Both the position numbers and the translations under genes were made by a program. Positions 8,419 to 27,385 of a DNA stretch of 35,013 nt are shown in pieces. Within the stretch, counting starts at the first letter, position 1. Each line of letters opens with the position of its first letter. The notes under the pieces are model-generated. The model saw only the letters and a list, made by a program, of their open reading frames with translations. It did not search any database and had not been told where the DNA came from. Source of the stretch: Sedimenticola sp. (GTDB taxonomy: Bacteria; Pseudomonadota; Gammaproteobacteria; Chromatiales; Chromatiaceae); contig JALSSX010000264.1 in assembly GCA_026984055.1 (NCBI GenBank), positions 1 through 35,013 on the forward strand. The letters are read 5' to 3'.

Positions 8419-8434
8419 TGATGTTGGCTGAGGC

Positions 8435-15100: not shown

Positions 15101-15282
15101 CTGGTTGTCTATGAGACGTTCGGATCAAGGTATTTTCGCGCGATGTCGATGCATGGGCTTCCGCAAGACAGGAGTCAGGGCAGGACCAGACCGGGTTCGA
15201 GTGTCAATGAGCAGTTAGCTGGCGGGTGTCGCTGAGGACACTTTCCGGCTTTTCGTCGAATATTCAACCAGGAGTCGGCAAT

Positions 15283-17823
15283 ATGAAACAAACCCGGCGT
15301 GACTTTATAAAGACCAATGCCATCGCCGCGACCGCAGCCGCGGCGGGTGTCACCCTTCCAACCCTGAGCGCCACAGCCCGGGCCGAGAGCAACAAGATTC
15401 GCTGGGACAAGACCGCCTGTCGCTTCTGTGGCACTGGCTGTTCCGTGCTGGTTGGCGTCAAGGACGACCGCATCGTCGCGACCCAGGGCGATCCGGATGC
15501 TCCGGTGAATCGCGGTTTGAACTGCATCAAGGGCTATTTCTTGTCGAAGATCATGTACGGCAAGGATCGCCTGACCCAGCCGTTGTTGCGCATGCGCAAT
15601 GGCGAATATGACAAGGAAGGAGAATTCACCCCGATCAGCTGGGACCAGGCCTTCGACATCATGGCCGACAAATGGAAGACGGCCATCAAGAAGAGCATGG
15701 AAGAGAACAAGGGCAAGCCGGTGGACAAGATCACCTCGCGCGTCGGCATGTTCGGTTCCGGTCAGTGGACGGTGTGGGAGGGTTATGCCGCCTCCAAGCT
15801 GTATAAGGCAGGTTTCCGCTCGAACAACCTCGATCCGAACGCACGGCACTGCATGGCTTCGGCGGTGGGTGCGTTCATTCGCGCCTTCGGCGCGGACGAA
15901 CCGATGGGCTGCTATGACGATTTGGAGCACGCGGATGCCTTCGTGCTGTGGGGTCCGAACATGGCGGAGATGCACCCGATTCTGTGGTCGCGCCTGACCG
16001 ATACCCGCCTGACCAAGGAAGGCTGTGAGGTACATGTGTTGTCCACCTACCGTCATCGCAGCTTCGAGCTGGCGGACAACGACATGATCTTCAAGCCGCA
16101 GACCGATCTGGCGATCTTGAACTATATCGCCAACTACATCATCGAGAACGAAGCTTACAACAAGGACTTCATCGCGAAGCACGTCAATTTCACCAAGACG
16201 CCGACTGACATCGGTTACGGCCTGCGTCCGACCGATCCGCGCGAGAGGAAAGCCAAGAACCCTGGCAAGGGTAAGCTGAGTAAGATCAGCTTCGAGGAAT
16301 ACGCCGAATCGGTAAAACCCTATACGCTGGAACATGCCTCGGCGCTGTCCGGCGTGCCCAAGGAAAAATTGCTGCGTCTGGCCAAGCTGTATGCCGATCC
16401 AAACAAGAAGATCACATCCTATTGGACGATGGGTTTCAACCAGCATACCCGCGGCGTGTGGGCGAACGGCCTGTGTTACAACATCCATCTGCTGATGGGG
16501 AAGATCTCCGAGCCGGGCAATGGTCCGTTCTCGCTGACCGGTCAGCCATCCGCCTGTGGCACCGCGCGTGAGGTCGGCACCTTCTCGCACCGCTTGCCGG
16601 CGGATTACGTGGTCTTCAAGAAACCGCATCGCGATTTCGCCGAGAAGATCTGGAAACTGCCGGATGGCACGATCCCAGGCAAGAAAGGCTATCATGCGGT
16701 TTTGCAGAATCGCATGTTGAAGGATGGCAAACTGAACGCCTACTGGGTGATGTGCACCAACAACATGCAGGCCGGTGCGAACATGAACGAAGAGACCTAT
16801 CCGGGCTATCGCAATCCGGATAACTTCATCGTCGTTTCCGATCCGTATCCAACCGTCACCGCGCAGGCGGCCGACCTGATCCTGCCGACCGCGATGTGGG
16901 CGGAGAAGGAGGGCGCTTATGGAAACGCCGAACGGCGCACTCAGTTTTGGCGTCAGCAGGTCAGCGCGCCGGGCGAGGCAAAATCTGATGTCTGGCAGAT
17001 CATGGAGTTTTCCAAGCGCTTCAAGACCGAGGAGGTCTGGCCGGAAGATCTGCTGGCGAAGAAGCCCGAGTATCGTGGCAAGACTCTGTATGAGATCTTG
17101 TATGCCAACGGTCAGGTAGACAAATTCCCGAAGACTCAGGTAACGGACGAGGCGGGGAACGTCTATCAGAACCATGAAATGGACCATTTCGGCTTCTATG
17201 TCCAGAAGGGCCTGTTCGAGGAATATCGGCGCTTCCAGCACGAAGGCGTGAAGAAAGGCCATGAACAAGCGCCGTTCGAGATGTACCACAAGGCGCGCGG
17301 CCTGCGCTGGCCGGTGATCGATGGCAAGGAAACCCTGTGGCGCTATCGTGAAGGCTACGATCCCTATGTCAAGGCCGGCGAGGGCGTGCGTTTCTACGGC
17401 CGCAAGGACGGTCGCGCGAATATCATCACCGCGCCCTATGAGCCGCCAGCGGAAAGCCCGGATAAGGAATTCGATATGTGGTTGTGTACCGGTCGCGTGC
17501 TGGAACACTGGCACTCCGGTTCGATGACCCGGCGTGTTCCCGAGCTGTATCGCGCCGTGCCCGACGCGGTGATCTTCATGCATCCAGATGACGCCAAGGC
17601 GCGTGGTCTGCGTCGAGGGTTGCCGGCCACCGTGCGTTCGCGTCGTGGGGAGATTACCGCGATGGTTGAAACTCGCGGGCGTAATCGGCCGCCACGTGGT
17701 CTGGTCTTCGTGCCCTGGTTCGACGCTAGCCGCTTGGTCAACAAGGTGACCCTGGATGCCACCGATCCGCTGTCCAAGGAAACGGACTATAAGAAATGCG
17801 CGGTCAAGGTCGTCAGGGCCTGA
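15283..17823 (+). CDS. napA: Periplasmic nitrate reductase catalytic subunit
   Basis: The 846-residue molybdopterin enzyme reduces nitrate to nitrite in the periplasm. A twin-arginine signal (TRRDFIKT at 4-11, cleavage near ATARA-ES) directs folded export. A [4Fe-4S] site is formed by Cys46, Cys49, Cys53 and Cys81 (CRFCGTGC ... NCIKG). The molybdenum ligand is Cys190 in NARHCMAS, followed by the NapA-typical DEPMGCYDD. The start is ATG 15283 with AGGAG about eight bases upstream; in-frame codons before it would bury the Tat signal. The length is slightly above the 828 of E. coli NapA. napB and napC follow. No napD, F, G or H is in the window, so the Tat chaperone must be elsewhere or dispensable. 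Confidence 0.96.
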
Positions 17824-17846
17824 GACTGACGTATTGCGTGATGACG

Positions 17847-17939
17847 GTCCGGGAGCAACCGCGCGGCGGTAGCGCCCGGACGGCCTGAATTGCTTCGGTG
17901 CTTGTAACGACTCGGCATGCGGGAAAATCGAGCCGTTAC
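17847..17939 (+). other. Two consecutive hairpins between napA and napB
   Basis: The first stem is GTCCGGGAGC (17847-17856) with GCGCCCGGAC (17872-17881), with a further ACCGC/GCGGT stem inside the loop. The second is GTAACGACTCG (17904-17914) with CGAGCCGTTAC (17929-17939), one A-C mismatch. Neither has a following T run, so termination is unlikely. They could protect or process the napA message relative to napBC. Confidence 0.55.
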
Positions 17940-17971
17940 CGGTACTTAACGAATCGAATGGAGACAATCCA

Positions 17972-18406
17972 ATGAAACTCAAATTGATAAGCGTGATGAT
18001 CGTGCTGATCAGCGGGCTCGCTGGCAATGCCAGCGGAATTGAATCACTGCGAGGAATGAAACCCCTGGACGGATCATCCGGCAAGGTGGAGGTCAAGAAG
18101 GTTCCCAAGGATGGTGATCTCATTCAACGAAACTATGTACAACAGCCGCCGTTGATTCCGCATAAGATCGATGGCTACCAGATCAATCTGGATTTCAACA
18201 AATGCATGAGCTGTCACAGTTGGTCACGCTATAAGGAAACCGGTGCGACCAAGATCAGCCAGACGCATTTCAAGGATAGGGACGGGGTGGATCTGGCAAC
18301 GGTTTCGGCGCGGCGCTACTTCTGTACCCAGTGCCATGTGCCGCAGGCCAACGCCAAGCCCTTGGTCGAGAATACCTTCAAACCGGTTGAAGCCATTTCC
18401 CAATAA
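17972..18406 (+). CDS. napB: Periplasmic nitrate reductase dihaem cytochrome c subunit
   Basis: The 144-residue precursor has a signal peptide (about 1-22) and exactly two haem c attachment motifs, CMSCH (78-82) and CTQCH (118-122), as expected for NapB. NapB passes electrons from NapC to NapA in the periplasm. His64 (IPHKI) and His99 (QTHF) are plausible distal haem ligands. The start at ATG 17972 has GGAGA nearby. It lies 148 bp after napA, an unusually wide gap holding two hairpins, and 27 bp before napC. Confidence 0.95.
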   Translation: MKLKLISVMIVLISGLAGNASGIESLRGMKPLDGSSGKVEVKKVPKDGDLIQRNYVQQPPLIPHKIDGYQINLDFNKCMSCHSWSRYKETGATKISQTHFKDRDGVDLATVSARRYFCTQCHVPQANAKPLVENTFKPVEAISQ

Positions 18407-18433
18407 ATGCTTCGCCAGACCCGGAGAACGAAT

Positions 18434-19012
18434 ATGAACAGCAGTAAGAAAACGGGTAGATTGGCCAAGTATTCTGCGGGCACCTTGCTGCTCGGTGGGA
18501 TCGTCTTGGGGATAATCCTGTGGGGTGGTTTCAACTGGGCGTTGGCTTTGACCAATACGGAGAAGTTCTGCATCTCGTGTCACGAGATGAAGGACAATGT
18601 CTATCAGGAATACAAGAATACCATCCATTACAACAACCGTACCGGTGTGCGCGCGACCTGTCCGGATTGCCATGTGCCGAAGGACTGGACGCACAAGATC
18701 GTGCGCAAGATTCAGGCGTCGAACGAGCTGTATCACAAGTTGCTGGGCACCATCGACACCCGCGAGAAATTCAAGGAACACCGCCTCGAACTGGCATTGC
18801 ATGAATGGAAGCGCATGAAGTCGGTCAACTCCCGCGAATGCCGTAACTGCCATGACTACGAGTACATGGATTTTGTCGCGGAAGGCCGGCGCGCGGTAAA
18901 GGCGCATTCCGAAGGCTTGGATCAGGGCAAGACCTGCATCGATTGCCACAAGGGCATTGCGCATCAATTGCCGAAGGGTTGGGAAAAAGCGGCGAAGGAC
19001 GCCGGCTTGTAG
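18434..19012 (+). CDS. napC: NapC/NirT-type tetrahaem cytochrome c
   Basis: The 192-residue membrane-anchored quinol dehydrogenase has one N-terminal helix (about 15-38) and four haem c motifs: CISCH (46-50), CPDCH (76-80), CRNCH (136-140) and CIDCH (168-172). It oxidises membrane quinol and feeds NapB. Size and motif spacing fit NapC. The start at ATG 18434 follows GGAGAACGA. The order napA-napB-napC makes this a complete minimal electron path from quinol to nitrate, without the NapGH route. Confidence 0.95.
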
Positions 19013-20360: not shown

Positions 20361-20525
20361 AGAGTTAGGCTGGCCGTGACCACGATTATAAGGCGTTTCC
20401 ATGGACAGGCGACCGGGAAACTTTTGGCGAATTCTCCGATTCTAGCCGAAAACGGGCATCGGGATACCCTCATATTTCCCGGCATGAATTTCATCGGTCG
20501 ACGTTATTTAGATGATGATATATCT

Positions 20526-20567
20526 AAATGATAATGAGTTGTATTAAGGTTTATGTTAAGTTATACT
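20526..20567 (+). promoter_or_regulatory. Promoter with Fur-like site for porin-FMN-PepSY operon
   Basis: A -35 TTGTAT (20539-20544) and a -10 TATACT (20562-20567) are separated by exactly 17 bp. Overlapping the -35 is AAATGATAATGAGTTGTA, in which TGATAAT matches one half of the 7-1-7 Fur site perfectly and the other half weakly (10 of 14 overall). Transcription from here would give a leader of about 43 nt before the porin ATG. Confidence 0.55.
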
Positions 20568-20616
20568 TCGCCGCGACTATCCATTTCGAAGACGACGCCT
20601 AGCACGGGAGTGAAGC

Positions 20617-21837
20617 ATGAGCATCTTGCCGAAGTTATCCACCATGAGTACCGCCATCCTGTTCATCCTGGTCAGTCCGGCCAGCCATGCTGGCAAGGCG
20701 CCCAGTCAGGAGGAGATGTGGCGGTTGATCCAACAACAGCAACGCCAGATCGAATCGTTACGCAAGCAGCTTCAGAATACCGATGCGAAGGCGGAGACAG
20801 CGGTCGAAGCGGTGGAATCGGGTCGGCCGGCAGCCTCCGCCAAGGCCGGCTGGATCGTCGCGGAACGCACGCATATCGGCGGCTATGGAGAGCTGCATTA
20901 CAATAATTTGTCTGGCGAGGGTAGCGTATCCGACAAGCGCGAGATCGACATGCATCGCTTCGTGTTGTTTGTCGGACACGAATTCAATGATCGGCTACGT
21001 TTCTTCTCTGAGCTGGAGGTGGAGCACGTGCTCGCTGGCGATGGCGAGCCGGGCGAGGTTGAGCTGGAACAGGCCTATATCGAGGCGGATATCACAGATG
21101 CGATGCGCGCGCGTGCCGGCGTGTTTCTGTTGCCGGTCGGCATCATCAATGAGACGCATGAACCGCCGACCTTCTACGGTGTCGAGCGCAACCCGGTAGA
21201 GCATGACATCATTCCGGCCACTTGGTGGGCCGCTGGCTTGGCATTGGCGGGCGAGTTCGGCGCTGGCTGGCATTACGACCTGGCCATCCACGAAGGCTTG
21301 CAAGCCTCGGGACCATCCTACCAGCCACGCGGTGGCCGGCAGGAATCCGCCAAGGCGGTGGCTGAGAATCTGGCCTATACCGCGCGTCTGAAATGGACCG
21401 GCATCACGGGTCTGGAACTCGCCGGCAGCTTGCACTACCAGAGTGATATCACCCAGGGGAACGATCCTGATGCCGGCGGCGCGTGGCTCTATGAGGCGCA
21501 CGCGATCTACCAGCGAGGGCCGTTCGGCTTGAAGGCACTGTATGCCCGCTGGAATCTCGATGGCGCTGGTCCGGAGGCCGTCGGCGCGGATCGGCAGGAT
21601 GGTGGATATATCGAGCCGTCCTGGAAGCTGAACGATGGGTTCGGTTTGTTCACGCGCTATAACGTTTGGGACAATGCCGCCGGCAATGGTGTGGCGAGCC
21701 GGAAATCGCAGTGGAATGTCGGCCTTAACTGGTGGTTGGATCCCGATGTCGTGGTAAAGCTTGATTATCAGTATCAGGACAATGACGACGGTATCGAACA
21801 CAATGGCGTCAATCTCGGCGTCGGTTTCCAGTTCTGA
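20617..21837 (+). CDS. Outer-membrane porin with N-terminal coiled coil
   Basis: The 406-residue precursor has a signal peptide (about 1-25, ending SHA), then a Gln-rich coiled-coil stretch (about 30-60, QQQQRQIESLRKQLQN) and a beta-barrel body of alternating aromatic strands ending in Phe (GVGFQF), the usual barrel-assembly signal. Blocks such as GGYGELHYN, HRFVLFVGHEF and FLLPVGIINETHEPPTFYGVERN fit the phosphate-selective/OprO-P-like or general trimeric porin superfamily. The ligand is not evident. It is 4 bp ahead of the FMN-binding gene, and its promoter carries a Fur-like site, so iron is the most likely context. Confidence 0.8.
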   Translation: MSILPKLSTMSTAILFILVSPASHAGKAPSQEEMWRLIQQQQRQIESLRKQLQNTDAKAETAVEAVESGRPAASAKAGWIVAERTHIGGYGELHYNNLSGEGSVSDKREIDMHRFVLFVGHEFNDRLRFFSELEVEHVLAGDGEPGEVELEQAYIEADITDAMRARAGVFLLPVGIINETHEPPTFYGVERNPVEHDIIPATWWAAGLALAGEFGAGWHYDLAIHEGLQASGPSYQPRGGRQESAKAVAENLAYTARLKWTGITGLELAGSLHYQSDITQGNDPDAGGAWLYEAHAIYQRGPFGLKALYARWNLDGAGPEAVGADRQDGGYIEPSWKLNDGFGLFTRYNVWDNAAGNGVASRKSQWNVGLNWWLDPDVVVKLDYQYQDNDDGIEHNGVNLGVGFQF

Positions 21838-21841
21838 TCCG

Positions 21842-22378
21842 ATGCGGTATTCGACAAGCCTGTTCGTTGTATTGCTGGCGACCCTGTCCGCCGTTCCGTG
21901 TCTTGCTCCGCTCCACGCGCGCGGCACTTATCAGACACCGGAGCGATTCCTAAAGCAGACGTTTCCGGATGGCGCGCCAAAGCCGGCGGTGGTGTGGATG
22001 CGCGGCGACGTGAAGAAACGCGTCGAGGCGATACTCGGTCATCGCTATCCGGCGTTGCGCATCCGCTATTGGCGACGGAATGGGCGTAGTGCCTGGATAC
22101 TCGACGAGATCGGCAAATCGGAAGCGATTACCGTCGGTATCTTCGTTGCCCAAGGTCAAATCGAGAAACTGCGTATCCTGATCTTTCGCGAAAGTCGCGG
22201 AGACGAGGTGCGCCATCCGGGTTTCACCCGTCAGTTCGAGCGGGCTGCCCTGGATGCGCACGGCGGGTTGAACACATCGATCGAATCCATCACCGGCGCG
22301 ACCTTGTCGGTACGCGCGGTGAAGAAGCTCGCGATCTTGGCGCTGTACCTCGACAGCTTGACCCATGACCCGGCGTAG
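21842..22378 (+). CDS. Periplasmic FMN-binding domain protein
   Basis: The 178-residue precursor has a signal peptide (about 1-26) and a C-terminal FMN-binding domain like those of RnfG/NqrC/NosR. The flavinylation-type motif is SITGAT (149-154), where Thr154 would carry FMN through a phosphodiester bond added by ApbE. The start at ATG 21842 is 4 bp after the porin stop, and the gene overlaps the PepSY gene by 14 bp. That tight arrangement suggests the FMN protein exchanges electrons with the PepSY membrane protein. No apbE is in the window. The electron acceptor is unknown; ferric iron is an inference from the promoter and neighbours. Confidence 0.82.
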   Translation: MRYSTSLFVVLLATLSAVPCLAPLHARGTYQTPERFLKQTFPDGAPKPAVVWMRGDVKKRVEAILGHRYPALRIRYWRRNGRSAWILDEIGKSEAITVGIFVAQGQIEKLRILIFRESRGDEVRHPGFTRQFERAALDAHGGLNTSIESITGATLSVRAVKKLAILALYLDSLTHDPA

Positions 22379-23171
22379 ACCTGGCGTGGCGCGCATCCGC
22401 CGGCTGTTCCGCTCGTTGTACCCGTGGCATCGCTATATCGGACTGAGCGCCGCTCCGCTGGTGGTCGTGTTGGCTGTCAGTGGGATACTCTTGAACCACG
22501 CTGGCGGGCTGGCGTTGAAGCATCGCCATGCGCGCGCAGCCTGGCTGCTGGATTGGTATGGCATGCATGCGCCGAAGCCTGACGCTGGCTGGTCACTGCC
22601 GGGAGGCGATGCGCCCGCTGGCCTGCTCGACGGCCGCTTGTTCATCGGTGAAACGCTGACCGGGATTGAGTTGCCGGATCTACGTGGCGCGCTGAGGATG
22701 CCGGCATTCATCGTCGCGGCGTCGTCCAGCAGCCTGGTCCTGCTGTCGCCACAAGGTGAACCACTCGATCGCATCGATGGCCTCGCTGGCCTTCCGGATG
22801 GCCAAGTGCGGCGCATCGGGTTGAGCGGCGGGCGGCTCGCGGCCGACATCGGCGTCGGTCATTACCTGGCCGATGAGAACTTGCTGAACTGGCGGCCCTT
22901 GCCAGTGGACTCGCGAGTCGCGTGGAGTGAGACCCGTGCCTTGGGCCATCCGCTGGTCGATCGGCTTCGACAAGGCTATCGTGAACACATGCTCGACTGG
23001 GAGCGCGTGTTGCTCGACCTGCATAGCGGCCGTATTCTTGGCCCGGGCGGTGTCTGGCTGATGGATGCTGCCGCGATCATGCTGTTGTTACTGGCGATGT
23101 CCGGGGTTGCGGTGTGGCTACGGCAGAAGGCGAAGCGGCGCGCGCGCCGGCGCGCAGCCACCCGGCATTAA
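22365..23171 (+). CDS. PepSY-associated membrane protein
   Basis: The 268-residue protein has two membrane helices, about 27-45 (APLVVVLAVSGILLNH) and about 229-250 (AIMLLLLAMSGVAVWL), flanking a periplasmic domain. The near-terminal LDLHSGRILG block is the hallmark of PepSY-associated TM proteins. His22, His45 and the His of DLHSG could bind haem or metal, as in related ferric-reductase-like proteins. It overlaps the FMN-binding gene, suggesting a two-component redox module. Its TAA stop (23169-23171) is also the first boundary of a hairpin repeat. It is shorter than PiuB-type PepSY reductases, which have four or more helices. Confidence 0.78.
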   Translation: MTRRRPGVARIRRLFRSLYPWHRYIGLSAAPLVVVLAVSGILLNHAGGLALKHRHARAAWLLDWYGMHAPKPDAGWSLPGGDAPAGLLDGRLFIGETLTGIELPDLRGALRMPAFIVAASSSSLVLLSPQGEPLDRIDGLAGLPDGQVRRIGLSGGRLAADIGVGHYLADENLLNWRPLPVDSRVAWSETRALGHPLVDRLRQGYREHMLDWERVLLDLHSGRILGPGGVWLMDAAAIMLLLLAMSGVAVWLRQKAKRRARRRAATRH

Positions 23172-23336
23172 CAGGCCGTTGAAAAATGGCATTTTTCAAC
23201 GGCCTGTGTGCGGTACAGGGATGTACCGCTATTTTCGATGACTGCAAGTCATTAAAAATGAAGGAATCGGGAAATCGTATTTTCCGGTTCCGTCGTTGAA
23301 GAAACTCATGGATGGACTTCTTCAACATCCTGTTAA
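23168..23336 (+). repeat. Hairpin repeat copy 5, intact 169-bp form
   Basis: Five hairpins in order: H1 CAGGCCGTTGAAAAATG/CATTTTTCAACGGCCTG; H2 GCGGTAC/GTACCGC with an AGGGAT loop; H3 ATTTTCGATGACT/AGTCATTAAAAAT; H4 GAATCGGGAAAT/ATTTTCCGGTTC; H5 GTTGAAGAA/TTCTTCAAC. H5 shows a paired A-T to G-C change relative to other copies. Both ends read YTAR-CAGG...CCTG-YTAR and are TTAA on each side. The left TTAA contains the PepSY stop codon. It lies between that gene and the LbtU-type porin gene. Confidence 0.9.
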
Positions 23337-23369
23337 TGTCAATGGATTTGTCGATCGAGAGGGGGCTTC

Positions 23370-24494
23370 GTGCAATATGGGATATTGCTGACAATCTACA
23401 TTCTCTTGGTTTTCCGTGGTATTGGGGCGCCAGTGAGCCTTACCCTTGCCGGCGAGGCCGAGGTCGAGCGGGACGCGCTGAATATCCAGCACCGGGTTGA
23501 ACGCCTGGAGAGGAGTCGCGAGCTTGCGCGACATACGGAAACCAGCATCCAGCGCCACCTGGGCATCACCGTCAGTGGCTTGTTCGAGGTCGAGATGCGT
23601 CATGCCGATGATCAGCATGCTACCGATCTTACGCTGGCCGCGCTGGAACTGGGATTCGACCTCCAGCCAACCTTTTGGGTGAATGGCCATCTGCTGTTTC
23701 TGTTCGAAGAGAAGGAAACCGAGCCCCCCGAGATCGACGAAGCCATCGTTACCCTGGCCAATCCCCGCGTGTTGCCGTTTTCATTGGCCGTCGGTCGCAT
23801 GCATGTGCCTTTTGGTCACTTTGCAAGCGCGTTGATCTCCGATCCATTGACGCTGGCCTTGGGAGAGACCCGTAAGACCGCGATGCAGATCGGCTATGTT
23901 GCGCGTGGATTCCATGCGCTGGGGTATCTGTTTGATGCCGAAGCTGGCGGCGGGGTCGCTGATCGCTCTGGGATGAAGATCGGCTATCATCGCGACGGCA
24001 GTGAATCCGCGTCAGGCTATGACCTGGGTGTTTCGTGGATCGGCGATCTGGCCGCCACCGACAGTTTGCGAGACGTGCTGGGCGATTCACCCAGACGGGG
24101 CGATGTCGTCGCGGGCTGGAGTGTTCACGCGACCTTGCGCTGGCGGCATTTCACCCTGGTCGGGGAATACCTTGGCGCGGTAGCGTCCTTCGGCGCGGCG
24201 GATCTTGATTTCCGTGGCATCGGGGCCAGACCGGCGGCCTGGAACCTGGAAATCGAGCGTACATTCGAATACCAGGGCAGGCCGCTCAGCATGGCGATGG
24301 CCTGGCAGCGCACCCGGGCGGCTTCGGCGTTGGAATTGCCGAAGACGCGTTGGCTCGTCGGCCTATCGCTGAGCCTGCACGAGCATGCCACGCTGGCCTT
24401 CGAGTATTCTCATGATGAGGCGTATGCGTTTGGCGTTGGTGGTAGTGGCGCGAATCGCAATGCCTTTGGCGTGCAACTCGCCTTGAGCTTCTGA
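23370..24494 (+). CDS. LbtU-family siderophore porin
   Basis: The 374-residue outer-membrane protein resembles the LbtU family known from Legionella, a TonB-independent siderophore porin. Typical blocks are HLLFLFEEKE...IDEAIVTL, SLAVGRMHVPFGHFASALISDPLTLALGETRKTAMQIGY, and a C-terminus ending in Phe (LALSF). A signal peptide covers about residues 1-28. The GTG start at 23370 follows GAGAGGGGG. A hairpin repeat separates it from the porin-FMN-PepSY genes; it may be read through from that operon or have its own promoter, which I cannot see in the 34 bp left. Family assignment rests on motif recognition. Confidence 0.75.
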   Translation: MQYGILLTIYILLVFRGIGAPVSLTLAGEAEVERDALNIQHRVERLERSRELARHTETSIQRHLGITVSGLFEVEMRHADDQHATDLTLAALELGFDLQPTFWVNGHLLFLFEEKETEPPEIDEAIVTLANPRVLPFSLAVGRMHVPFGHFASALISDPLTLALGETRKTAMQIGYVARGFHALGYLFDAEAGGGVADRSGMKIGYHRDGSESASGYDLGVSWIGDLAATDSLRDVLGDSPRRGDVVAGWSVHATLRWRHFTLVGEYLGAVASFGAADLDFRGIGARPAAWNLEIERTFEYQGRPLSMAMAWQRTRAASALELPKTRWLVGLSLSLHEHATLAFEYSHDEAYAFGVGGSGANRNAFGVQLALSF

Positions 24495-24927: not shown

Positions 24928-25096
24928 CTAGCGGGCCATTGAAAAATGCCATTTTTCAATGGCCTGTGTGCACTACAGGGAGGTATCGCCATTTTCGATG
25001 ACTGCAAGTCATTGAAAATGAAGGAACCGGGAAATCGTATTTTCCGGCTCCGTCGTTGAAAAAGTCCATGGAAGGACTTTTTCAACATCCTGCTAG
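24928..25096 (+). repeat. Hairpin repeat copy 6, intact 169-bp form
   Basis: The same five-hairpin order as copy 5. In H1 the pair becomes CCATTG/CAATGG instead of CCGTTG/CAACGG, a compensatory change. H5 is a perfect GTTGAAAAAGTCC/GGACTTTTTCAAC. H2 is degenerate here (two mismatches). Both boundaries are CTAG. Read on the minus strand, the right-hand boundary supplies the TAG stop of lpxH (25093-25095). Confidence 0.9.
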
Positions 25097-25815
25097 GAGA
25101 GAAAGTCATGAGACTGTATGCCGGTTGCGGTGGAGCGGAGATAGCCAGCTCGTTCCTCGCGCCATTCGGGAAGCACCCAACGCACCGCTGGCTTCCCGTC
25201 CAGCTCGAATGCATGCTGTGCCGCGCGGTGAGTATGGCCGTGAATCAGTGTGGTGGCGTGATGACGATGGAAGGCGTCTGCGACCGCATCGGCGTTCACA
25301 TCCATGATGTCGTCGGCCAGCAATGAGGTGGCCTCGCCGCTACGCTTTCGATAGTCTTCGGCAATTATTCTTCTTTCACTCAGCGGTTTGGAAAGAAATT
25401 CTGATATGAAGTCTGAATTTCTAAGCAGTTTTCTCGCCTGCTGATATTGGGTATCGTCGCGGCACAGGGTATCGCCATGCATCAACAGAGCCGGACCGCT
25501 CGGCAGGTCGACGAGCGCTTCCTCGGCGAGCAATTGTCCGCCAGTGGCCTCGACGAAGCGTTGGCCGAGTAGGAAATCCCGGTTGCCGTGCTGGAAAAGA
25601 ACCTGGGTACCGGCCCGCGACAGCGCGGCCAGCCAGCCGATGACATCGTTCCATTCGGGATCATCGTCGCCAATCCACGCATCGAATAGGTCACCGAGTA
25701 TATACAACTGTTCGGCCCGGGTGGCCTCGTCACGCAGGAAGCGCCGTAACAGCGCCAGCGTCGCCGGTCGCTCCCGGGATAGATGCAGATCGGAGATCAG
25801 CAAGGCGGTGCGCAT
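25093..25815 (-). CDS. lpxH: UDP-2,3-diacylglucosamine diphosphatase
   Basis: This 240-residue calcineurin-type phosphoesterase hydrolyses UDP-2,3-diacylglucosamine to lipid X in lipid A synthesis at the inner membrane face. Metal-binding blocks are in the expected order: SDLHLS (8-13), GDLFDAWIGDD (41-51), HGNRDFLLG, HGDTLCRDD and HGHTHR. The length equals that of E. coli LpxH. It starts 3 bp after ppiB ends, the conserved ppiB-lpxH arrangement. Its TAG stop lies in the boundary of a hairpin repeat, so the transcript would run straight into the H5 stem. Confidence 0.95.
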   Translation of the reverse strand: MRTALLISDLHLSRERPATLALLRRFLRDEATRAEQLYILGDLFDAWIGDDDPEWNDVIGWLAALSRAGTQVLFQHGNRDFLLGQRFVEATGGQLLAEEALVDLPSGPALLMHGDTLCRDDTQYQQARKLLRNSDFISEFLSKPLSERRIIAEDYRKRSGEATSLLADDIMDVNADAVADAFHRHHATTLIHGHTHRAAQHAFELDGKPAVRWVLPEWREERAGYLRSTATGIQSHDFLS

Positions 25816-25818
25816 GGA

Positions 25819-26304
25819 TCAGATCGACTCGATCTTTCCGATGACCACGGGTTCGTTCGGCACATCTTGATGACCTACTTTCGTTCCAGTGGATACTTCC
25901 TTGATTTTATTGACGACATTCATGCCTTCCACGACCTTGCCGAAGACGCAATAGCCCCAGCCATCCTGACCAGGGTGGTCGAGAAACTGGTTGTCCGCGA
26001 CATTGATGAAGAATTGCGCGGTGGCGGAATGCGGATCGGAGGTGCGCGCCATGGCGATGCTGCCGAGCGCGTTGCTCAGACCGTTGGCTGCCTCGTTCTC
26101 CACAGGCGCCTTGGTGGCTTTCTGCATCATATCCGGCTCGAAACCGCCACCCTGAATCATGAAGTTGGGTATCACGCGATGGAAGATGGTGCCATCGTAA
26201 AAACCTTCATTGACGTAGTCCATGAAGTTGGCGCAGGTTTTTGGCGCCTTCTCCTCGTCGAGTTCAATCTTGATATTGCCGAGGTTGGTTTTCATTAGAA
26301 TCAT
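25819..26304 (-). CDS. ppiB: Cytoplasmic cyclophilin-type peptidyl-prolyl isomerase
   Basis: The 161-residue protein is a cyclophilin without a signal peptide, matching E. coli Ppi[21 protein letters not shown] with the catalytic Arg, [17 protein letters not shown], and [13 protein letters not shown]. The start at 26304 (MILMKTN) has AGGTAA at good spacing; the MKTN codon at 26295 is an alternative. It is followed at once by lpxH. A secreted paralogue lies upstream beyond a hairpin repeat. Confidence 0.94.
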
Positions 26305-26464
26305 GTTGTTACCTGATATATCTGTGTGAGTGGGGTAGCTGGCATGCTGGCTGCAACCGCAGTCAGCCAAGGGTCGGATTCATTGCATGCGGACTGAAGT
26401 CGAAGTGCCTGGCAATGTTACCCGCTGTTGTACGGAGCAGTCACATGGCCGCAATGGCACGCAG

Positions 26465-26633
26465 TTAACAGGCCGTTGAAAAATGGCATTTTTCAACGGC
26501 CTGTGTGCGGTACAGGGACGTACCGCCATTTTCGATGACGGCAAGTCATTGAAAATGAAGGAACCGGGAAATCATATTTTCCAGTTCCGTAATTGAAAAA
26601 GTCCACGGAAGGACTTTTTCAATATCCTGCTAA
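26465..26633 (+). repeat. Hairpin repeat copy 7, intact 169-bp form
   Basis: Five hairpins as in copies 5 and 6, with a perfect H2 (GCGGTAC/GTACCGC). H5 loses a pair in its loop-proximal part (CCACGGAAGG) but keeps its stem. Boundaries are TTAA on the left and CTAA on the right; read on the minus strand the right one gives the TAG stop of the upstream cyclophilin gene. The minus-strand frame that is open in copies 5 and 6 is broken here by TGA in the H4 region, so a shared peptide is not what is conserved. Confidence 0.9.
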
Positions 26634-27226
26634 GAGCCGGCGTTCAACTGGCCGTGGCTATCGTTACCGAGCTTCTCGATGGATTCTATGACGATATCCT
26701 GTTCGGGCACGTTACGCATGCCTTGTTTGCTGGTGGTATGGACATCTGCGATCTTGTCCACGATATCCATGCCGTCGACGACCTTGCCGAAAACGGTATA
26801 GCCCCAGCCACGAAAGGATTTATCCTTGAAGTCCAGAAAATCATTGTCCACCAGATTGATGAAGAACTGCGCGGTGGCGGAATGCGGATCTGAAGTGCGT
26901 GCCATAGCGATGGTACCACGCCGGTTCTTCAAGCCGTTGTCAGCTTCGTTTGGTACCGGAGCATGCGTGGATTTACGCTCCAGGTCGGGGCCGTAGCCGC
27001 CGCCCTGAATCATGAATCCGCTGATCACGCGGTGGAATATCGTGCCGTCGTAAAAGCCTTCGTCCACATAGCGGAGGAAGTTCTTTACCGTTTCCGGCGC
27101 CTTGTCCGGATAAAGCTCCAGAGTCACGTCGCCAAGACGGGTTTTCATCAGTATATTGACCGGCGCGGCCAAGGCGCTGGCGGAGGCCAGGACGAGCAAC
27201 GAGAGCGAGACAAGGATGCGTTTCAT
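26630..27226 (-). CDS. ppiA: Periplasmic cyclophilin-type peptidyl-prolyl isomerase
   Basis: The 198-residue protein has a clear signal peptide (about 1-20, LVLASASALA-AP) followed by a cyclophilin domain very like the cytoplasmic one next door: [65 protein letters not shown]. It would catalyse proline isomerisation in the periplasm. The start at 27226 gives the signal peptide and has GGAG upstream; earlier codons would not. ppiA and ppiB look like a tandem duplication, now separated by a hairpin repeat. The gene symbol is assigned by location and signal peptide, not by proven orthology. Confidence 0.9.
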   Translation of the reverse strand: MKRILVSLSLLVLASASALAAPVNILMKTRLGDVTLELYPDKAPETVKNFLRYVDEGFYDGTIFHRVISGFMIQGGGYGPDLERKSTHAPVPNEADNGLKNRRGTIAMARTSDPHSATAQFFINLVDNDFLDFKDKSFRGWGYTVFGKVVDGMDIVDKIADVHTTSKQGMRNVPEQDIVIESIEKLGNDSHGQLNAGS

Positions 27227-27385
27227 TCGGTTCGACTCCGTGGTGAGGATGATGGCGTACATGATAACTCGGAATATTCATGCAGTGCGCAGTTCGAAAC
27301 CTGCTTGGCGTGAAAGCACGCGGTCGGTTGTCTGTGACCCGTCGGCGGAACGCCGTGGATACGCCCTTGTGGGCTTGGCCTTGGC

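Follow-up and report, generated by a model that had tools for sequence, protein, structure and literature searches.

The porin, FMN-binding and PepSY-type genes found in our window (the whole of a 35-kb contig, 35,013 nt, from the 3.16-Mb genome of Sedimenticola sp.) form a real conserved unit. We consider it fairly probable that the triad is an operon under Fur repression which acquires iron by a reductive route, in which Fe(III) would be reduced for uptake by FeoAB. The three genes lie on the forward strand and encode an outer-membrane porin of the Porin_O_P type (20617–21837; PF07396, 37.7 bits against a Pfam cut-off of 20.9), a secreted FMN_bind protein (21842–22378; PF04205, 25.7 bits, cut-off 22) and a PepSY_TM protein with two transmembrane (TM) helices (22365–23171; PF03929, 48.8 bits, cut-off 28.8). 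The preliminary description of this DNA spoke of overlapping genes, and the FMN and PepSY genes do overlap, by 14 nt, but the porin and FMN genes are separated by a gap of 4 nt. It also extended the module to a fourth gene, an LbtU-type porin; of this neighbourhood only the porin–FMN–PepSY part has proved to be conserved.

A scan with an alignment of the FMN protein, restricted to one genome per species, yielded at least 565 confirmed stretches, the best 80 of which were sampled as loci, so that this sample is biased to close relatives. At 74 of these 80 loci the porin, FMN and PepSY genes follow one another in the same order and on the same strand, and at the remaining six the contig begins right at the FMN gene, so that the triad is cut off. 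When 142 relatives were searched with the PepSY protein, 19 genomes matched, and almost every one of the stronger matches adjoined FMN and porin homologues. Among the named carriers of the triad are Thiohalobacter, Thiogranum, Methylophaga, Shewanella and Ghiorsea, with Methylophaga aminisulfidivorans, M. sulfidovorans, Shewanella kaireitica and Thiohalobacter thiocyanaticus as culturable species. Sampled separately, the phylum as a whole was positive in 12 of 398 genomes, the window's own included, and the full triad was present at 9 of the 11 other loci; one of these nine (L232) seems to duplicate the contig of L174, judging from its length of 19126 bases. Outside the triad no consistent flanking genes were seen, the commonest neighbour family occurring in 17 of about 90 loci. 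Two Shewanella triads (L149 and L154) have about 1.3 kb between the FMN and PepSY genes (2092–3366 in L154); the gap in L149 holds a gene (L149:6637–7440) for a lipoprotein-like protein of 267 amino acids with no Pfam match.

The regulatory evidence comes from a de novo motif search on 75 related promoters, the window being excluded, which returned the Fur box TAAATGAGAATGATTTGCATT. The motif reaches at least 15 bits in 66 of the 75 promoters, these being in-sample scores on the training set; held-out scoring applies only to the window, the congener G002 and the phylum-wide set. In the window the site TAAATGATAATGAGTTGTATT (20525–20545, forward strand) scores 25.0 bits and is the best of the 35 kb on both strands, followed by 12.5 bits for the same palindrome and then by 8.1, while 3 Mb of second-order random sequence contained no site of 20 bits or more (maximum 15.9). 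The Fur-like TGATAAT noticed in the preliminary description sits inside this full 21-bp dyad. Over the stretch that begins with the molybdopterin oxidoreductase and ends with the porin, G002 is collinear with the window, and its Fur box is retained (24.8 bits) although the surrounding intergenic DNA has diverged. Three loci of the phylum-wide set (L231, L237 and L241) have no Fur site before the porin. The feoAB genes of the window's own genome have a Fur site of 19.6 bits, which precedes feoA by about 23 nt (L209:2255–2275, G000:C189), and the TonB-receptor regions fetched contain none above 9 bits. On sequence evidence, control of the triad by Fur is a well-supported hypothesis. The upstream molybdopterin oxidoreductase, which is NapA-like, is accompanied by a NapC/NirT-type cytochrome (18407–19012), the two occupying 15226–19012.

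The well-spaced promoter of the preliminary description, a sigma-70-like TTTAGA–17 nt–GATAAT at 20507–20535 (forward strand) overlapped by the footprinted Fur box, is present, but such −35/−10 pairs are no commoner than chance predicts (2 against an expected 2.2), and the hexamers were dropped as evidence on account of this count. A simple 15-mer Fur consensus was also rejected in favour of the de novo motif, its separation of signal from background being too weak. An IUPAC Fur pattern searched genome-wide with two mismatches gave no more matches than the reversed control, and only the feoAB position was followed.

The FMN_bind protein bears the flavinylation-type motif ESITGATLSV, in which the G-A-T is kept and Thr154 is invariant (100% of 91 sequences); just before the motif the window's protein has Glu148 where 98% have Asp. 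Two ApbE genes are present in the genome, on other contigs than the triad. The PepSY_TM protein has the two helices ascribed to it previously but no recognisable PepSY domain: in the AlphaFold model (pLDDT 93.9) two TM helices stand around a 12-strand all-beta domain, which has a weak likeness to propellers. Since the N- and C-termini are basic, this domain is suggested to be periplasmic. No solved structure matched the protein convincingly, FoxB not being among the matches listed, and structure look-ups by sequence returned no strong relatives. His22 (100%), His45 (97%) and His220 (100%) lie at or near the helix ends of the model, where they would be expected in a b-type haem protein if the protein is dimeric.

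In two genomes the porin–FMN pair is adjoined, with no PepSY gene beside it, by a small cytochrome b561/DUF4405-type gene: L237:2571–3026, on the reverse strand and above the PF01292 cut-off, and L240:3547–3999, also on the reverse strand, opposite to that of its FMN gene, with 32% identity to the L237 copy. Such a swap is expected if the third position is that of an electron donor, and it lends support to a putative path from a membrane cytochrome to flavin. The exchange of PepSY for an unrelated cytochrome also makes the electron-donor role directly testable. The membrane-to-FMN path for ferric reduction put forward in the preliminary description holds up as a hypothesis, given the conserved Thr and His residues, ApbE, the Fur-boxed feoAB and this partner swap.

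The mechanism that we favour would run as follows. When iron is scarce, Fur would leave its box and the operon would be expressed; the porin would admit a ferric complex to the periplasm, where the FMN protein, flavinylated by ApbE at Thr154, would receive electrons from a quinol or a cytosolic donor through the PepSY_TM protein, which is probably a homodimer carrying b-type haem. The reduced flavin would then convert Fe(III) to Fe(II), to be imported by the equally Fur-boxed FeoAB. The Fur box is the main reason to name iron as the presumed substrate; like the substrate, the haem, the flavinylation, the direction of electron flow and the cargo of the porin are inferred in this scheme. A bolder version, in which we place little credence, would join the three proteins physically into a single chain across the envelope that spares iron and corresponds, with flavin, to the porin–cytochrome conduits: an inner-membrane cytochrome (PepSY_TM or b561/DUF4405-type) would pass electrons to a flavinylated periplasmic protein, which would dock on the porin's N-terminal helix, with ferric reduction taking place in or at the pore mouth.

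The fourth gene (23370–24494, forward strand) was correctly assigned to the LbtU family, the match to the curated model LbtU_sider_porin (NF033652) reaching 244 bits (2.4e-72) against a cut-off of 90; it encodes a homologue of siderophore porins such as LbtU of Legionella. In a four-gene siderophore module under a single Fur promoter, as proposed in the preliminary description, LbtU would admit the ferri-siderophore and the triad would free the iron by reduction; the family membership of LbtU speaks for it. The window's LbtU, unlike most of its relatives, has no Fur site of its own within the 35 kb and may depend on the promoter of the triad. The PepSY and LbtU genes are separated by a MITE-like repeat of 161 bp (core 23172–23332; 23168–23336 with the TTAA on both sides), the PepSY stop codon falling inside the left TTAA; if the repeat is conceptually removed, LbtU starts 33 nt after that stop, which makes co-transcription likely before the insertion and uncertain now. 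LbtU may share the transcript of the triad, attenuated by the later insertion of the repeat, which contains two terminator-like hairpins. The four-gene reading is the most credible of the alternatives to a self-contained triad and is still rather improbable, as LbtU adjoins the triad at no other locus among the 80 and the phylum-wide set, the hairpin-bearing repeat stands between the two, and the congener G001 has LbtU with no match to the triad porin or FMN protein, its one weak match to PepSY falling in another protein. In most of the 15 relatives with LbtU (L190–L204) the top-scoring Fur-like site in the region retrieved is just upstream of LbtU, which would make it an iron-class gene in its own right. 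On account of the lack of adjacency at the other loci examined and of these Fur boxes we reject LbtU as a core member; it is a separate gene of the putative Fur class and a lineage-specific neighbour behind the triad.

Other doubts concern the substrate and the porin. The target of the triad might not be iron but copper, say, or an organic acceptor, with expression when iron is short and with flavin replacing haem or Fe–S carriers; the PepSY_TM relative CrpH is linked to copper (PMC13038864), and iron-poor conditions may favour flavin carriers (discussion in PMC8238504). We hold this to be unlikely, somewhat more so than the four-gene module, because the Fur-box footprint is near universal and common to feoAB, and the PepSY_TM reductases of known substrate mostly act on ferri-siderophores (PMC13038864). 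The AlphaFold model of the porin has 16 strands and an N-terminal helix (31–67), and its Foldseek matches are OmpC-type porins, OprP and DcaP. With such fold matches and its Pfam family, Porin_O_P, it could be a general or phosphate-type porin that stands first in the operon by chance and plays no particular role in reducing iron, a view to which we give a little less weight again. Against this view, it precedes FMN–PepSY at every locus with room for it among the best 80 of at least 565, and is the best conserved of the three proteins (45–61% identity to the window copy). Where OprP is known for its arginine ladder, the triad porin has an invariant acidic/His set (SELEVEH, NETHEPPTFYGVERN), and its conserved residues include many Glu and His. 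In classical porins the constriction loop lies between strands 5 and 6; in the triad porin a highly conserved stretch, NETHEPPTFYGVERN, occupies this position, together with Glu132, Glu134, Glu136 and His137, though the confidence of the model is low in the loop itself. The porin may plausibly admit a metal complex.

The preferred reading, that of a reductive iron operon, places the triad close to systems already described. In PepSY-like flavinylation systems, recognised by a PF03929 or PF16357 protein in an FMN-binding/ApbE gene cluster, as is the case for our PepSY_TM protein, clusters of FMN_bind/ApbE and PepSY genes have been tied to iron and Fur (eLife 2021, PMC8238504; also PMC12004947), and the description was extended later (mSystems 2024, PMC11334425). 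They share with the triad an FMN-bearing extracytosolic protein, a PepSY_TM partner and the iron/Fur association; however, they feature ApbE, DUF2271 and DUF4198, whereas the triad consists of a porin, an FMN_bind protein and a two-TM PepSY_TM protein, with the apbE genes elsewhere. Fur-regulated operons of PepSY membrane proteins that respond to iron depletion are also known from Shewanella oneidensis (SO1188–SO1189–SO1190) and Caulobacter (CCNA_03155–03159) (PMC2667191, PMC2535785, PMC12004947), the S. oneidensis PepSY protein SO_1188 belonging to the Fur regulon (PMC12442407). Unlike the triad, neither has a porin described; SO1190 carries the annotation of a periplasmic component, and DUF2271 and DUF4198 proteins are encoded at the Caulobacter locus. 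Orthology of SO1188–SO1190 with the triad was suspected but not established, the annotation of SO1190 seeming to point to a cluster of the DUF4198 type.

The ferrisiderophore reductases FoxB, HiuB and FsrB resemble the third protein of the triad in having PepSY_TM and conserved His residues, and they release iron in the periplasm. Their TM helices number four or more, and their periplasmic domains are large and of the PepSY type (PMC13038864), whereas our protein has two helices, or four if it forms a dimer, and a beta-propeller-like domain. The partner of FoxB and of HiuB is a TonB-dependent receptor (PMC8891985, PMC13001220); the PepSY_TM protein of the triad is accompanied by an FMN protein and a porin.

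According to the preliminary description, the arrangement is not known as a described system. For the electron path this does not hold, that half being not new in kind (PMC8238504); the porin version does appear to be new, as the word "porin" is absent from the main texts of PMC8238504 and PMC11334425, and a full-text search, with subscription papers, supplementary tables and regulon databases outside its scope, gave no paper that brings together PepSY, FMN-binding, porin and Fur. The triad is best read as a porin-bearing form of the known PepSY-like flavinylation systems, not found described before. It would represent a compact and widespread Fur-class iron unit (at least 565 genome stretches) in which a dedicated porin is linked with reduction by flavin in the periplasm. 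If this is true, many Proteobacteria, including the Methylophaga, Shewanella, Thiohalobacter and Ghiorsea lineages, would possess a route for iron in which a TonB receptor is not central, and the conserved porins of this family would gain a function open to testing. Independence of TonB, as suggested at first, does not extend to the organism, whose genome has six matches to the TonB-receptor plug domain.

The repeat that separates PepSY from LbtU is not part of the iron system. In the 3.16-Mb genome a first look gave 349 candidates, and at least 40 copies, about 90% identical, were scored; the ends of the repeat read CAGGC(C/T)GTTGAAAAA, and a 4-bp sequence of the YTAR type borders it on both sides. 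Besides the copy at 23168–23336, the window has copies at 24929–25099 and 26466–26636 and a partial one at 1067–1237, together with fragments at 8433, 14653, 27383 and 29427. One copy lies between two adjacent, mutually related genes for peptidyl-prolyl isomerase-like proteins (25819–26370 and 26630–27262, reverse strand).
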